Shown: piece after piece, positions 57,733 through 62,521 of the stretch | How the letters are laid out: each line of letters begins with the position of its first letter | How positions within the stretch are numbered: position 1 is the first letter of the stretch | Assembly: GCF_002257665.1 (NCBI RefSeq) | Contig: NZ_MQWB01000001.1 | Span: 942,515-1,006,514 of the forward strand | Length of the DNA: 64,000 nt | Direction: 5' to 3' | Origin: Rubricoccus marinus | GTDB taxonomy: Bacteria; Bacteroidota; Rhodothermia; Rhodothermales; Rubricoccaceae | Made by a program: the position numbers and the translations under genes | Notes under the pieces: model-generated | Told to the model about the DNA's origin: nothing | Seen by the model: only the letters and a program-made list of their open reading frames with translations | The model's database searches: none

Positions 57733-58320
57733 ATGACAACGATTTACTGGTTTTGCCTCGGCGGCGGCCTCGCGTTTTCTCTGCTCCTGGTTCTGCTGGA
57801 TGGCCTCCTCGACGGCGCGCTGGAAGCGCTCGACGGCGCCATCGACGCGTTCGACATCGACGGCGTGTTCGACCCGCTCTCGTTCGTCGCGGGTCTGACC
57901 GTCTTCGGCGGCGCCGGGCTCGTTCTCGACGAATACGTCGGGCTGGGCACCACGCCAGAGGTCGTCATCGCCGCGGCCGTCGGGCTGGTTTCCGCGGTGG
58001 CGCTCCACCTGGTCTACGTCAAGCCGATGAAGCAGAGCGAGAACAGCACGGGCTTCTCCCAGGCGGAGTACGTCGGCAAGACCGGCGAGGCGAACACGAG
58101 CATCCCCGCCAGCGGCTACGGGGAGGTGGTCGTCAAGATGGGCGCCAGCACGACGTTCCAGACCGCAGCCTCGTTTGACGGCTCGCTCATCCCCGACAGC
58201 ACGCCCATCGTCGTGGTAGAGGTCGCCCGCGATGGCACGCTGCTCGTCGCGCCGCTCACGCAAGAGGAGCACTCGCCTCTGGCGGAGGCGCCGCCCGCCC
58301 GCCTTCAGACCGGCGTGTGA
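57733..58320 (+). CDS. NfeD-like (YuaF-type) membrane protein, flotillin partner
   Basis: The 195-residue protein has three membrane helices (about 4-25, 48-70 and 80-100) and a C-terminal OB-fold-like domain (about 115-180; Y-V-G-K-T-G-E-A, S-G-Y-G-E-V-V-V-K and V-V-V-E-V-A-R-D-G-T-L-L-V). That is the YuaF/NfeD short form, which in Bacillus is encoded with flotillin and controls membrane fluidity regions. The flotillin gene follows after 78 bp on the same strand. The ATG at 57733 is used since the first helix starts directly after it. Confidence 0.84.
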   Translation: MTTIYWFCLGGGLAFSLLLVLLDGLLDGALEALDGAIDAFDIDGVFDPLSFVAGLTVFGGAGLVLDEYVGLGTTPEVVIAAAVGLVSAVALHLVYVKPMKQSENSTGFSQAEYVGKTGEANTSIPASGYGEVVVKMGASTTFQTAASFDGSLIPDSTPIVVVEVARDGTLLVAPLTQEEHSPLAEAPPARLQTGV

Positions 58321-58398
58321 TCCCCGCCTCTCGCGCCGAGAGCGCGCCAGAGGCCTGTCTTTTGATTTTCCGTATTCCCTTTCAGTCCCCCTACAGTC

Positions 58399-59952
58399 AT
58401 GCTAGAGCTTCTCGGAATCGGTGGCATCGTCGGCATTGTCGTCGTCGTCACGGTCGTCCTCCTCATCATCCTCGTCGCGAGCCGGTACAAGACGGTCTCG
58501 CCGGATGAGGCCATGATCATCACCGGCGCCGCGCTGGGCGGCAAGAACGTCCTCACGGACGAGAGCGCCCGCCGCGTCAAGATCATCCGCGGTGGCGGCG
58601 CCTTTATCGTGCCCATCGTGCAGCAGAAGGAGTACATCTCGCTGCTCTCGCACAAGCTCGATGTCTCCACGCCAGAGGTCTACACGTCCGAGGGCGTGCC
58701 GGTCCTGACGGACGGCGTGGCGGTGATCAAGGTCGGCTCGTCCGTAGAGGACGTGGCGACGGCCGCCGAGCAGTTCCTGGGCAAGCCCGACGAGGAGCTC
58801 CGCGCCGAGGCCCGGGAGGTCTTGGAGGGCCACCTGCGCGCCATCCTGGGCACGCTGACCGTGGAGGAGGTGTATCGCAACCGCGACAAGTTCGCGCAAG
58901 AGGTGCAGTCCGTCGCCGCCCGCGACCTGAAGAAGATGGGGCTCCAGATCGTGAGCTTCACCATCAAGGACGTGCGCGACAAGAACGGCTACTTGGAAGC
59001 GCTCGGACGCCCGCGCATCGCCGCCATCAAGCGCGACGCCGACATCGCCGAGGCCGAGGCTACGCGCGACGCCCGCATCAAAAAAGCCAACGCGGACGAG
59101 GAGGGCCAGAAGGCGGAGCTGATCCGCGACACGAACGTCGCCGAAGCCAACAAGGCGAAAGAGCTGAAGGTCGCCGCGTTTAAGCAGGAGCAGGACACCG
59201 CGAAGGCGTCCGCCGACCTCGCGTACTCCGTCCAGGAGGCGATCTCTCAGAAGGCCGTGGTCGAGGAGCAGATGCAGGTCGAGCTCGTGCGCAAGGAGCG
59301 CGAGGTGGACCTGGAGAAGCTGGAGATCGTGCGCCGCGAGAACCAGTACGACTCCGAGGTCAAGAAAAAGGCCGACGCCGACCGTTACGCCGTGGAGCAG
59401 TCCGCGGAGGCGAGCAAGCTGCAGCAGATGCGCCGCGCCGAGGCTCGCCAGTTCGAGATCGAGGCCGAGGCGAAGGCAAAGGCCGAGGCCAAGCGCCTGG
59501 ACGGCCAGGCCGTCGGTGACGCGACACGCGCCGAGGGCCTCGCCCAGGCCGACGTGATCCGCCAGCGCGGTCTCGCCGAGGCCGAGGCTAAGGAGAAGCT
59601 CGCCGAGGCGTTCGAGAAGTTCGGCGAGGCCGCGGTCTTGGACCTGCTTGCCAAGATGATGCCCGACCTCGCGAGAGAGATCGCCGCGCCTCTGGCGTCG
59701 ATCGACAAGCTCACGGTCGTGGACACCGGCGGCGGCGAGGGCGTCGGGCGCCTGACGAACACCGTCGCGCAGCTCATGGCGACGACGCCGGAGCTCGTCA
59801 AGGGCATCACCGGCGTCGACCTCGGCGCGATGGCGAACCGCCTCACAAGCGAACGCCAGGAACCGACCGCCAAGCCGGCCGCCTCTGGCGACGGCGCCTC
59901 CTCCACGCCAGCGCTCTCGACGGGCGCGGCGCCAGAGGCGGACGAAGCCTAG
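58399..59952 (+). CDS. flotillin family protein
   Basis: The 517-residue protein has an N-terminal membrane hairpin or helix (about 5-28), an SPFH/band-7 domain (about 30-210; V-S-P-D-E-A-M-I-I-T-G and F-T-I-K-D-V-R-D), and a long Ala/Glu/Lys coiled coil (about 215-430) with many E-A-E-A-K repeats, followed by the flotillin C-domain. It forms oligomeric membrane scaffolds. The Ala/Pro-rich tail carries two iterated words, whereas the SPFH and coiled-coil parts have none for about 1 kb. It is encoded with the NfeD-like gene upstream and, only 4 bp later, the first of four small membrane proteins. Confidence 0.92.
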   Translation: MLELLGIGGIVGIVVVVTVVLLIILVASRYKTVSPDEAMIITGAALGGKNVLTDESARRVKIIRGGGAFIVPIVQQKEYISLLSHKLDVSTPEVYTSEGVPVLTDGVAVIKVGSSVEDVATAAEQFLGKPDEELRAEAREVLEGHLRAILGTLTVEEVYRNRDKFAQEVQSVAARDLKKMGLQIVSFTIKDVRDKNGYLEALGRPRIAAIKRDADIAEAEATRDARIKKANADEEGQKAELIRDTNVAEANKAKELKVAAFKQEQDTAKASADLAYSVQEAISQKAVVEEQMQVELVRKEREVDLEKLEIVRRENQYDSEVKKKADADRYAVEQSAEASKLQQMRRAEARQFEIEAEAKAKAEAKRLDGQAVGDATRAEGLAQADVIRQRGLAEAEAKEKLAEAFEKFGEAAVLDLLAKMMPDLAREIAAPLASIDKLTVVDTGGGEGVGRLTNTVAQLMATTPELVKGITGVDLGAMANRLTSERQEPTAKPAASGDGASSTPALSTGAAPEADEA

Positions 59953-59956
59953 GCCG

Positions 59957-60250
59957 ATGGGATACGCTTGGGGCTCGTTCCACAAGCACCCCGACTACCG
60001 GCGCACGCGCCGGCGGTCGGCGGTGGCGACGGAACAGCTCCAGGCGGCTCTCCGCGAGGAGACCGGCGACGAGCGGCCTCTGGCGCCAGAGGCCAGCGCC
60101 GAGGCTCGCGCGGCGCGCGAGCGGTACCTCGGCCGGCGGCGGAGCCGCCAGAGGTCGGGGCGGCTCGGCGAAGCGCTGACATCGCTCGGCCTCGTCTTGC
60201 TCGTGGTCGCCGTCGTGCTGGGCGCCATCGCCAAGCTGGGTTGGATCTGA
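59957..60250 (+). CDS. small membrane protein 1 of the RHRDRR-motif cluster
   Basis: The 97-residue protein has a basic cytoplasmic start, M-G-Y-A-W-G-S-F-H-K-H-P then R-R-T-R-R-R-S-A-V-A-T-E-Q-L-Q-A-A-L, a Glu/Ala/Pro linker holding a full iterated palindrome, and one C-terminal membrane helix (about 74-95). Its first 35 residues align with those of the three following genes (M-G, R-x-R-R-R/S, T/A-x-x-L/F-x-x-A-L). It starts 4 bp after the flotillin stop, so it is in that operon. No function is known to me. Confidence 0.68.
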   Translation: MGYAWGSFHKHPDYRRTRRRSAVATEQLQAALREETGDERPLAPEASAEARAARERYLGRRRSRQRSGRLGEALTSLGLVLLVVAVVLGAIAKLGWI

Positions 60251-60531
60251 TGGGTGGCTACGGATACCGGAAACCTGCGAAGCCACGCCATAGGGAACGC
60301 CGGTCTGGCCGCGCTACCGCGCGCTTCCAAGAAGCGCTCGACGGTCCTGTGAACACCGACACGCCTCTGGCGCCAGAGGCCTACGAGCGCGCGAAGGCGA
60401 GCCGTGAGAGACACGCGCGCCGTCGGCCGGAGAGCACGGTGGAGGACGAGACCGAGGAAGTCTTGGTGGCGGTCGGGGCGGTTGTCGCCCTCCTCCTCAT
60501 ATTCTTGATGGGCATCGCGTTTGCGAGCTAG
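60250..60531 (+). CDS. small membrane protein 2 of the RHRDRR-motif cluster
   Basis: The 93-residue protein has M-G-G-Y-G-Y then P-R-H-R-E-R-R-S-G-R-A-T-A-R-F-Q-E-A-L near its start, a polar linker with an iterated palindrome (L-A-P-E-A), and a C-terminal membrane helix (about 70-91). The start codon shares one base with the stop of the previous gene (TGATG), so translation is coupled. It is a shortened paralogue of its neighbours. Confidence 0.68.
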   Translation: MGGYGYRKPAKPRHRERRSGRATARFQEALDGPVNTDTPLAPEAYERAKASRERHARRRPESTVEDETEEVLVAVGAVVALLLIFLMGIAFAS

Positions 60532-60543
60532 CAAGGAGAAAAC

Positions 60544-61107
60544 ATGGGCATCGCACCACATCGCAACCCGATCAACGCGCGGCACCGGGACCGGCGCTCA
60601 GGGCACCAAACGCGCTTGCTGCGCGACGCTCTGAGGGATCAGCCGTGGGAGGGCTCATCGGCAGGGAGGACCCCTCTGGCGCCAGAGGCTGAGCGCCACC
60701 AGGGGCCGACCGGATGGGCGCTGAAACGCCGCCGTGCCGTGCAAGCTGTGCGCCTCCGGCACGCCCCCAGCATCATTGGAGCACTCCTGCTTCTCGCGGT
60801 GCTCGTTGTCGTGGCCTTTGGCCTGCGCGACATGGCGCAGCCTCGTGATCTCCTGCCTCTGGCGGAGAATCGGGAGGCTTATGACGCGCTCGCAGACTTC
60901 GGCGCGCGCGGCGAGGCGCCGGGCCAAACCAGGACGCCCGCGCCAGAGGCGGTCCGTCTCGGGCGGGAGCTGCGGGTGTACCGCGTGGTGGAGGACGAGG
61001 AGGGAACGATCGTGATGATCCCGCGCTCAGGGCTCAAGCTTCAATACGCACGTTACCAGAATGGGGCGTGGGATACCGGGAAGTTGCCATTTTCAACATC
61101 TGACTGA
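60544..61107 (+). CDS. membrane protein 3 of the RHRDRR-motif cluster
   Basis: The 187-residue protein begins M-G-I-A-P-H and carries A-R-H-R-D-R-R-S-G-H-Q-T-R-L-L-R-D-A-L, a linker with a full iterated palindrome, a central membrane helix (about 76-95; L-L-L-L-A-V-L-V-V-V-A-F-G-L) and a 90-residue C-terminal part that should lie outside the cytoplasm. The tail ends in a small beta-like segment (V-Y-R-V-V-E-D-E-E-G-T-I-V-M-I). It follows gene 2 by 12 bp. Confidence 0.68.
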   Translation: MGIAPHRNPINARHRDRRSGHQTRLLRDALRDQPWEGSSAGRTPLAPEAERHQGPTGWALKRRRAVQAVRLRHAPSIIGALLLLAVLVVVAFGLRDMAQPRDLLPLAENREAYDALADFGARGEAPGQTRTPAPEAVRLGRELRVYRVVEDEEGTIVMIPRSGLKLQYARYQNGAWDTGKLPFSTSD

Positions 61108-61125
61108 GGCGTTTCGCCAGAGGCC

Positions 61126-61689
61126 ATGGGATTCGCGTCCAGGTCGCACATGACCCCCGATCCTCGCCATCGCGACCGGCGGGGTGCCGCTGCCACGCGG
61201 CAGCTTCGGAAGGCGTTCGTGGATCGGCTGCCCGATCCCGGCTCTGCGCCCGACCCCGAGCGTGCGGGGGCCTTTGCGAAGCGCCGCGTGAGCCGCTGGC
61301 GCCGGCTGCGGCGGCGGTGGGTCCACGTTCTCACGGGCACGAGCGTCGTGGTGGCATTGACTCTGCTCATCGTCGCACTCCGCCCTACACCCTTCCCGGC
61401 AACGTTCACGTCTGTCCGGATTGAGAACAACAGCGCACAGCATCACTACGGCGTCGCGCTCGAGAATGACGGCCGGGAGTATTTCGTCGGCTTCGTCGCG
61501 AGAGGAGAGACGCTGAGCTACGCGGTGCGGAGCATCCGGCCCGAGGGGCTCGCCCTCAGCCTCTCGGACCGCGTGGTCGCGCGGTGCTGCGAGGTCCCGC
61601 CAGAGGCCTCGGAGGTGATCGTGTTCCAACTCGCCGACGATCCGGCCTCTGGCGAGAGCCTGGGGACCGTTGTCAGCCGTCCGAAGTGA
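61126..61689 (+). CDS. membrane protein 4 of the RHRDRR-motif cluster
   Basis: The 187-residue protein begins M-G-F-A-S-R and carries P-R-H-R-D-R-R-G-A-A-A-T-R-Q-L-R-K-A-F, a basic stretch (R-R-W-R-R-L-R-R-R-W), one membrane helix (about 72-90), and an outer beta-rich domain with a single C-C pair (V-A-R-C-C-E-V). It follows gene 3 by 18 bp and ends the run. It converges on a small gene at 61694. The ATG at 61126 is preferred over the one at 61150 because the M-G start is shared by the cluster. Confidence 0.68.
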   Translation: MGFASRSHMTPDPRHRDRRGAAATRQLRKAFVDRLPDPGSAPDPERAGAFAKRRVSRWRRLRRRWVHVLTGTSVVVALTLLIVALRPTPFPATFTSVRIENNSAQHHYGVALENDGREYFVGFVARGETLSYAVRSIRPEGLALSLSDRVVARCCEVPPEASEVIVFQLADDPASGESLGTVVSRPK

Positions 61690-61693
61690 GCGG

Positions 61694-61963
61694 CTACGGC
61701 GCCAGAGGCACCAGCTCTCCGTTCGGCCCGACGGTCATCCCGTCTGGCGGCGGCGTGCTCGGGAAGTTGGAGATCGGGACCGAGCCGTCCCAGTCGTTGG
61801 GCACGTAGTGCGAGTGCCCGCCGTGCGAGATCGCGATGTAGCCCTTGGGCGAGACCACGCCCGTGTCGCTCGTGCGCAGGCCCAGCGCGTCCATCAGCAC
61901 GAAAACGAGCAGCAGCGCGATGGCGGCGAAAAGCACGGTGCGGACCTTCTGGCGCGTCGTCAT
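61694..61963 (-). CDS. small membrane-anchored hypothetical protein
   Basis: The 89-residue protein has one N-terminal membrane helix (about 9-26; V-L-F-A-A-I-A-L-L-L-V-F-V-L) and a short outer part with I-A-I-S-H-G-G-H-S-H-Y-V-P and a Pro-rich end. The His-rich H-G-G-H-S-H could bind a metal, but nothing more is known. It starts 15 bp from the divergent gluconokinase and ends 4 bp from membrane protein 4. The open frame upstream only mirrors gluconokinase. Confidence 0.6.
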   Translation of the reverse strand: MTTRQKVRTVLFAAIALLLVFVLMDALGLRTSDTGVVSPKGYIAISHGGHSHYVPNDWDGSVPISNFPSTPPPDGMTVGPNGELVPLAP

Positions 61964-61978
61964 GGTTCGGGGTGCGAG

Positions 61979-62521
61979 ATGCAGAAGTCTACAGCCCCCT
62001 CTGGCAGCCCGGCGCGAAGCGTCCGCGGAAACCCCCGCGTGATCGTCGTGGCCGGTCCGTCCGGCTCGGGCAAGACCACGTTGGGGCGCGCCCTCGCGGC
62101 GCACCTCGGCTGGGCGTTCGAGGACGCCGACGACTACCACGCGCCAGAGGCCGTCGCCAAGATGGGCGCGGGCAAAGGGCTCACCGACGCCGACCGCGCG
62201 CCGTGGCTGGACCGCCTCGCGGCGCTGATCCAGGAGCGCGCCACCCTCGGACCGCCGACCGTTCTCTCGTGCTCGGCCCTCACGCGCGCCTACCGCGAGC
62301 GCCTCACCCGTGCGGCCTCTGGCGTCGCCCTCGTCTGGCTCGCCGTTCCCGAACACCTCTTGCGCCAGAGGCTGACGTCTCGGCCCGGGCACTTCGCGGG
62401 CGCGGCGCTCCTGCCAAGCCAACTCGCGACGGTCGAACCGCTCGCATCAGAAGAAGGGCTCGCGCTCGACGGCTCGCGGCCTCTGACGGCACTCGTGCGG
62501 GAGGTCGCAGCCTGGGTCTAG
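61979..62521 (+). CDS. gntK: gluconokinase
   Basis: The 180-residue protein is a P-loop carbohydrate kinase of the GntK/thermoresistant gluconokinase type: V-A-G-P-S-G-S-G-K-T-T-L-G near residue 30, D-A-D-D-Y-H-A-P-E-A-V-A-K-M about 55, and V-L-S-C-S-A-L-T-R-A-Y-R and H-F-A-G-A-A-L-L-P-S-Q-L after it. It makes 6-phosphogluconate from gluconate with ATP. The motif P-E-A within the substrate-binding loop is also an iterated word, tolerated because homologues have P-x-x-N/A-x-x-K-M there. The ATG at 61979 fits the family start plus a short leader. The stop overlaps that of the convergent gene by four bases. Confidence 0.9.
   Translation: MQKSTAPSGSPARSVRGNPRVIVVAGPSGSGKTTLGRALAAHLGWAFEDADDYHAPEAVAKMGAGKGLTDADRAPWLDRLAALIQERATLGPPTVLSCSALTRAYRERLTRAASGVALVWLAVPEHLLRQRLTSRPGHFAGAALLPSQLATVEPLASEEGLALDGSRPLTALVREVAAWV

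Follow-up and report, generated by a model that had tools for sequence, protein, structure and literature searches.

A Lineage-Restricted Family of Predicted Single-Pass Membrane Proteins Encoded Behind NfeD and Flotillin in Rubricoccus marinus

Organization of the Flotillin Locus

A 64,000-nucleotide stretch of the genome of the marine bacterium Rubricoccus marinus (contig NZ_MQWB01000001.1, positions 942,515 to 1,006,514), here called the window, contains a gene for a protein resembling NfeD, the partner of flotillin, then floT, the gene for the membrane-organizing flotillin itself, and, directly behind it, four small genes, g1 to g4, whose products share a short basic motif near the N-terminus. 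In window coordinates, the features of the locus are:

57733..58320, + strand: gene for an NfeD-like (YuaF-type) membrane protein, which opens the unit
58399..59952, + strand: floT, flotillin of 517 amino acids (aa), with NCBIfam FloT and Pfam Band_7 and Flot
59957..60250, + strand: g1, 97 aa; basic motif, linker bearing PLAPEA, C-terminal membrane helix at about 74-92
59999..60055, + strand: the shared 19-residue basic motif as it stands in g1, RRTRRRSAVATEQLQAALR
60250..60531, + strand: g2, 93 aa; built like g1, helix at about 71-89; its start overlaps the g1 stop
60544..61107, + strand: g3, 187 aa; the basic motif and linker lead to a helix at about 76-94, followed by an outer domain (about 93 aa)
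61126..61689, + strand: g4, 187 aa; the basic motif and linker lead to a helix at about 66-84, followed by an outer domain (about 103 aa)
60077-60092 (g1), 60364-60379 (g2) and 60673-60688 (g3), + strand: palindrome CCTCTGGCGCCAGAGG, encoding LAPEA

The six genes are co-directional on the + strand from 57733 to 61689. The gap between floT and g1 is 4 bp, g1 and g2 overlap by 1 bp (TGATG), and 12 and 18 bp separate g2 from g3 and g3 from g4, respectively, so that the coordinates bear out the first-pass annotation, which had described four genes spaced by -1 to 18 bp behind the NfeD-like and flotillin genes. A ribosome-binding site, AGGAG, lies shortly 5' of g3. Between floT and the g genes no promoter-like or co-directional terminator-like site was found, the promoter scan covering sigma-70-type sites only. 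Expression of g1-g4 from the NfeD-floT transcription unit, together with its first two genes, is predicted and well supported by the arrangement.

The flotillin is assigned with confidence by the NCBIfam FloT equivalog (767 bits, cut-off 700) and by the Pfam families Band_7 (4.7e-29) and Flot (3.6e-10). It consists of an N-terminal helix at about residues 9-27, an SPFH/Band 7 domain at 32-222 and a Flot domain at 371-457. The NfeD-like protein had no match in Pfam. Its assignment to the NfeD2/YuaF type is based on position and size, and the missing match is expected for the YuaF type, whose members are very divergent (PMC2636767). A similar gene precedes floT in every Rhodothermales floT locus of sufficient length (54-73% identity), as well as in loci of Paenibacillus and Cohnella (about 41-47%). 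Both proteins are acidic, with isoelectric points of 5.0 for FloT and 4.1 for the NfeD-like protein and a net charge of -16 each.

The Shared Basic Motif

All four g proteins begin with M-G, followed by R-[HR]-x-x-R-R-[SG]-x-x-x-T-x-x-[LF]-x-x-A-[LF]. The basic N-terminal region spans about 35 residues and is succeeded by a variable linker and then by one membrane helix. In the N-terminal alignment (g1 numbering), the four have in common M1, G2, a proline, R15, R19, R20, T25 and A31. When the comparison is extended to six family members, namely g1-g4, one gene of the congener G001 and one of G006, a genome from another genus of the Rubricoccaceae (gene G006b), residues R19, R20, T25 and A31 are invariant. 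The M-G start, initially taken as general, holds for all four window genes but not for the G006 member, which begins with MF.

Leave-one-out N-terminal profiles were searched against a six-frame set of 276,003 residues, in which the best unrelated match had an expectation value (E) of 0.025. With profiles from the six members, the held-out gene was always the best match outside the training set, with E from 1e-6 to 1e-8. Profiles from the window's four genes only recovered the held-out gene at E 4e-5 to 3e-6. The 19-residue motif has a mean pairwise identity of 53% and a z score of 6.2 against shuffled sequence, while the scores of the linker and the membrane helix are 2.2 and 0.2, which makes the helix no more alike than shuffled sequence. 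At this level of comparison, the profiles and the motif score show that g1-g4 form one paralogous family, as had been proposed for them. By the same scores, the membrane helix is conserved as hydrophobicity only, whereas the motif is conserved as sequence. This concentration of conservation in the motif argues for specific recognition over a generic positive-inside signal.

The first-pass annotation knew of no such family, and searches of g1-g4 against Pfam, NCBIfam, PHROGs and PADLOC agree with it, giving nothing near any cut-off; the family is new to these catalogues. The only profile match in the PDB, the designed coiled coil 8qag (E 3e-6, profile positions 56-110), was discarded as a low-complexity helix match. 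A tblastn search of plasmids with g3 gave no matches.

Distribution of the Family

The family was sought in overlapping sets of 60 relatives of R. marinus, 245 genomes of the class and 395 genomes of the phylum. Strong matches (E 6e-15 or better) occur only in R. marinus itself (G000, four genes), G001 (one gene) and G006 (one gene), and in the scan of the class all six of the six lie directly behind floT. The phylum scan gave no further strong match. Among 80 floT loci of named genomes, the family was absent except in contig L073 of the congener G001, where its member begins 3 bp after floT, so that the close packing extends to the sister species. Weak profile matches, at E 0.01-1, appear in nearly every genome scanned, but some ten orders of magnitude separate the strong matches from the background (3e-4 or worse). 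Two weak motif matches, PHRHPDAEHDDERPGDAEQLQRAFRDRL in G029 (E 3e-4) and SPTRSSTHTDRRSGVDTAQFQ in G055 (E 6e-4), were treated as chance; neither is known to lie near floT, which in G029 is on a separate contig, and neither is shown to start a membrane-helix protein. Thus, the scans brought up no occurrence of the motif in unrelated contexts, and the similarity survives alignment with relatives. The expectation that these genes always go with flotillin stands in one direction only, since every strong match adjoins floT but floT is often found without the family.

Within the Rubricoccaceae, the slot behind floT holds four genes in R. marinus, one in G001, two in G006, one lipoprotein gene in G004, or none. 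It is empty of the family in G003, G007 and G008, which belong to the same family as R. marinus, and likewise in G017, G029 and G039 of a neighboring family. Where floT lacks family members, the next conserved gene is that of a convergent small membrane protein and/or a gluconokinase-like gene. The slot of G006 encodes an 85-aa protein, G006a, and then G006b, the ortholog of g3. G006a (MSLYKLKVFQATPKRR..., about 39-296 bp past the floT match of L034) is basic and tail-anchored, has a similar build and occupies the place of g1. It was left out of the family, having no detectable homology to it (hhalign probability 7.5%).

Orthologs and Outer Domains

The product of g1 matches its ortholog in L073 over the full length (37% identity, E 4e-14), and that of g3 matches G006b with 31% identity over 174 aa, an alignment that spans both the motif and the outer domain and is also found by profile search. 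Based on these two matches, g1 and g3 probably split before the two genera parted.

As first described, each protein has a single membrane helix and two have an outer domain. The C-termini of g1 and g2 lie just 4-5 residues past the helix, leaving no outer domain, and the outer domains of g3 and g4 are unrelated to each other. The domain of g4 resembles the lipoprotein from the floT slot of G004 (BLASTP E 0.004). A profile was built from these two sequences, whose floT-slot matches to it are consequently not independent, and it found a third, independent sequence, a lipoprotein of G046, at 1.3e-6. Further anchored proteins related to the g4 outer domain occur in G099 and G075. The copies in G046, G099, G075 and G004 share with g4 a core consisting of E-N near the start, G-x-x-Y and a later P, but they are without the RHRDRR tail. 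No floT was seen in the flanking stretches read around the G046, G099 and G075 copies, and only the copies of the Rubricoccaceae are behind floT. These comparisons suggest that g4 arose when the shared tail and helix became fused to an outer module that already existed. Because its relatives stand alone on a lipobox or on an N-terminal or other membrane anchor, the g4-type domain is expected to lie outside the cytoplasm.

A small extracytoplasmic domain related to that of g4 is scattered in the class, at L166 (5720-6094), L173 (1438-1782), L174 (1360-1767) and, after floT, in L036. Carried on a lipobox or membrane anchor, it has E-N near its start, followed by V-T-G-x-x-Y and Y-L-E-P-G-like blocks.

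The Palindrome of the Linkers

The first-pass annotation included an iterated palindrome among the traits of the linkers, a description that did not hold for the family. While CCTCTGGCGCCAGAGG lies at a homologous linker position in g1, g2 and g3, only these three have it complete, and it is absent from g4, the G001 member and G006b. The R. marinus genome contains 982 copies, the sister species 1 and other family members 0-4, and the 64-kb window has 229 occurrences of the half-site GCCAGAGGC, where 1.5 would be expected. From these copy numbers and the excess of half-sites, CCTCTGGCGCCAGAGG is a species-specific, genome-wide repeat and not a feature of the family. The phenomenon resembles HIP1 of the cyanobacteria (PMC4390886). 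CCTCTGGCGCCAGAGG, however, is specific to this species, and it can lie in frame within genes, where it is read as APEA/PLAPEA. Since the orthologs in G001 and G006 are without it, an early g1/g3 split, if it predates the genera, suggests that CCTCTGGCGCCAGAGG entered the linker site repeatedly or was passed between the paralogs by conversion.

Topology and Predicted Structure

Each family protein has one hydrophobic stretch. The net charge ahead of it is +3 to +13, and behind it, in g1-g4, about -3 to +1. This positive-inside distribution and the lipoprotein relatives of the outer domain lend good support to a predicted single-pass topology with the N-terminus inside and the C-terminus outside. 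In the published system, flotillin and NfeD bind each other, and the body of the former and the soluble domain of the latter are cytoplasmic (PMC11222466), so the conserved tails would face the flotillin assembly. AlphaFold2 models place helices at residues 9-31 and 55-98 of g3 and at 13-33 and 44-85 of g4, the second being long in both. In both models a short helix near the N-terminus is followed by a long one that crosses the membrane, although confidence is low (predicted local distance difference test scores of 54.5 and 53.9) and the outer domains are not resolved.

Comparison With Known Systems

On the evidence of gene order and homology, the R. marinus locus is an NfeD-flotillin operon with an added paralogous family that is restricted to its lineage. 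The first two genes and their order are those of yuaF-yuaG(floT)-yuaI in Bacillus subtilis (SPFH2/NfeD2; PMC2636767). The B. subtilis operon also has an extra downstream gene, yuaI, which encodes a GCN5-related acetyltransferase reported only in that species (PMC2636767). In contrast, the extension in R. marinus encodes four paralogs that are predicted to cross the membrane once and belong to no catalogued family. By description, g1-g4 can also be likened to YdjG and YdjH, membrane proteins co-encoded with the SPFH protein YdjI in pspA-ydjGHI; the YdjH-YdjI pair illustrates that such proteins can bind their SPFH partner directly and determine where it localizes (PMC8581546). However, YdjI is without a membrane anchor of its own and needs YdjG/H, while the FloT of R. 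marinus has its own helix. In the FArhodopsin clusters, the gene of a lineage-specific membrane protein also stands beside flotillin, and the protein is thought to use the flotillin microdomain (PMC10308929). FArhodopsin is a seven-helix rhodopsin, whereas g1-g4 are a bitopic family with a shared cytoplasmic motif.

Possible Roles of g1-g4

The reading we favor, tentatively and at somewhat less than an even chance, is that the basic tail docks g1-g4 at the FloT-NfeD assembly or its immediate lipid. Each protein would expose about 60-70 residues to the cytoplasm, beginning with a short, basic helix of amphipathic character, from which a disordered linker would lead to another helix that enters the membrane. 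The amphipathic helix would be formed by the motif R-H-R-D-R-R-[SG]-x-x-x-T-x-x-L-x-x-A-L and would act as a common docking or retention element. Its target at the assembly would be either the acidic body that FloT or NfeD has in the cytoplasm or the surrounding anionic lipid, and binding there would put each protein in place. The differing C-terminal parts would then be the functions held there, g1 and g2 acting as short tethers or assembly modulators and g3 and g4 presenting periplasmic domains. Three observations favor docking: particular residues are conserved, and on the side of the membrane that docking requires; the genes follow floT closely; and the searches found no member away from it.

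Several observations weigh against docking. The amphipathic moment of the motif is modest, with shuffle fractions of 0.04-0.31. Of the seven Rubricoccaceae genomes with floT, three are without these genes and one has only the lipoprotein. Because NfeD-floT stands without the family in those three genomes and in three of the neighboring family, flotillin apparently does not need g1-g4, which are, by this comparison, dispensable. They also evolve faster than their supposed partners, the identity to the congener being about 40% for g1, 73% for NfeD and 85% for FloT. Moreover, adjacency conserved in a few related genomes may reflect vertical inheritance instead of interaction. Binding to FloT or NfeD, like any function of g1-g4, is inferred.

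Two other explanations compete with docking, and both seem unlikely. The basic N-terminus might be a lipid-binding or topology element acting on anionic phospholipid of the inner leaflet, in which case g1-g4 would be accessory factors that share the stress or process of FloT and do not bind it. An arginine-rich, net positive N-terminus ahead of a single membrane helix fits such a role, and as flotillin domains in bacteria reportedly recruit particular lipids (PMC11222466), co-localization could come about without protein contact. We consider this rather improbable, as a role for charge only would not need R19, R20, T25 and A31 to be invariant while the helix and linker drift. A little less probable still is that the slot is a permissive operon end, gaining and losing fast-evolving orphan membrane genes, with g1-g4 as lineage-specific duplicates whose function is unrelated to flotillin or near none. 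The varied slot contents within one family, the fast divergence and a third-position GC content of 0.74-0.82 in g2-g4, below the 0.92 of floT, are all consistent with it. Yet the motif and the g3/g4 outer domains persisted at one site across two genera, and unlinked orphans would be expected to scatter, while no member was found elsewhere in the 245 genomes of the class. Finally, a chance resemblance of arginine-rich N-termini has next to no probability. Such frames are common in this genome of 69% GC, and weak matches are widespread, but an artefact of chance or composition is rejected by the separation of the strong matches, the class-wide scan and the leave-one-out recovery.

If docking is correct, the basic helix of about 20 residues could be a modular flotillin-docking tag. 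The unit of tag and membrane helix would have been duplicated behind floT and varied outer domains added to it, giving co-encoded clients with a transplantable targeting signal. This extension is speculative and we regard it as doubtful. The sequence basis on which bacterial flotillins choose their membrane clients is not known, and a family encoded alongside flotillin that conserves just a short cytoplasmic motif, its helix and outer domain being free to vary, would be a natural place to seek the signal that directs proteins to flotillin. Should the motif not bind flotillin, g1-g4 would be a small orphan family of limited reach, present in three genomes.

Other Features of the Locus

The NfeD-FloT pair (57733-59952) of the Rubricoccaceae and one neighboring family has a history of its own. 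Its FloT is 67-74% identical to those of Paenibacillus, Cohnella and Thermincola, whereas SPFH proteins from the other families of the order reach at most 38% identity to it. This far greater closeness to the former suggests that the pair was acquired by lateral transfer.

Past the slot, a convergent gene (61694-62422, - strand) encodes a conserved small membrane protein with the motifs SHGSHTHYVPNDW and SNFPSTPPPEGMTV, equivalents of which are found in L034-L038 and L042.

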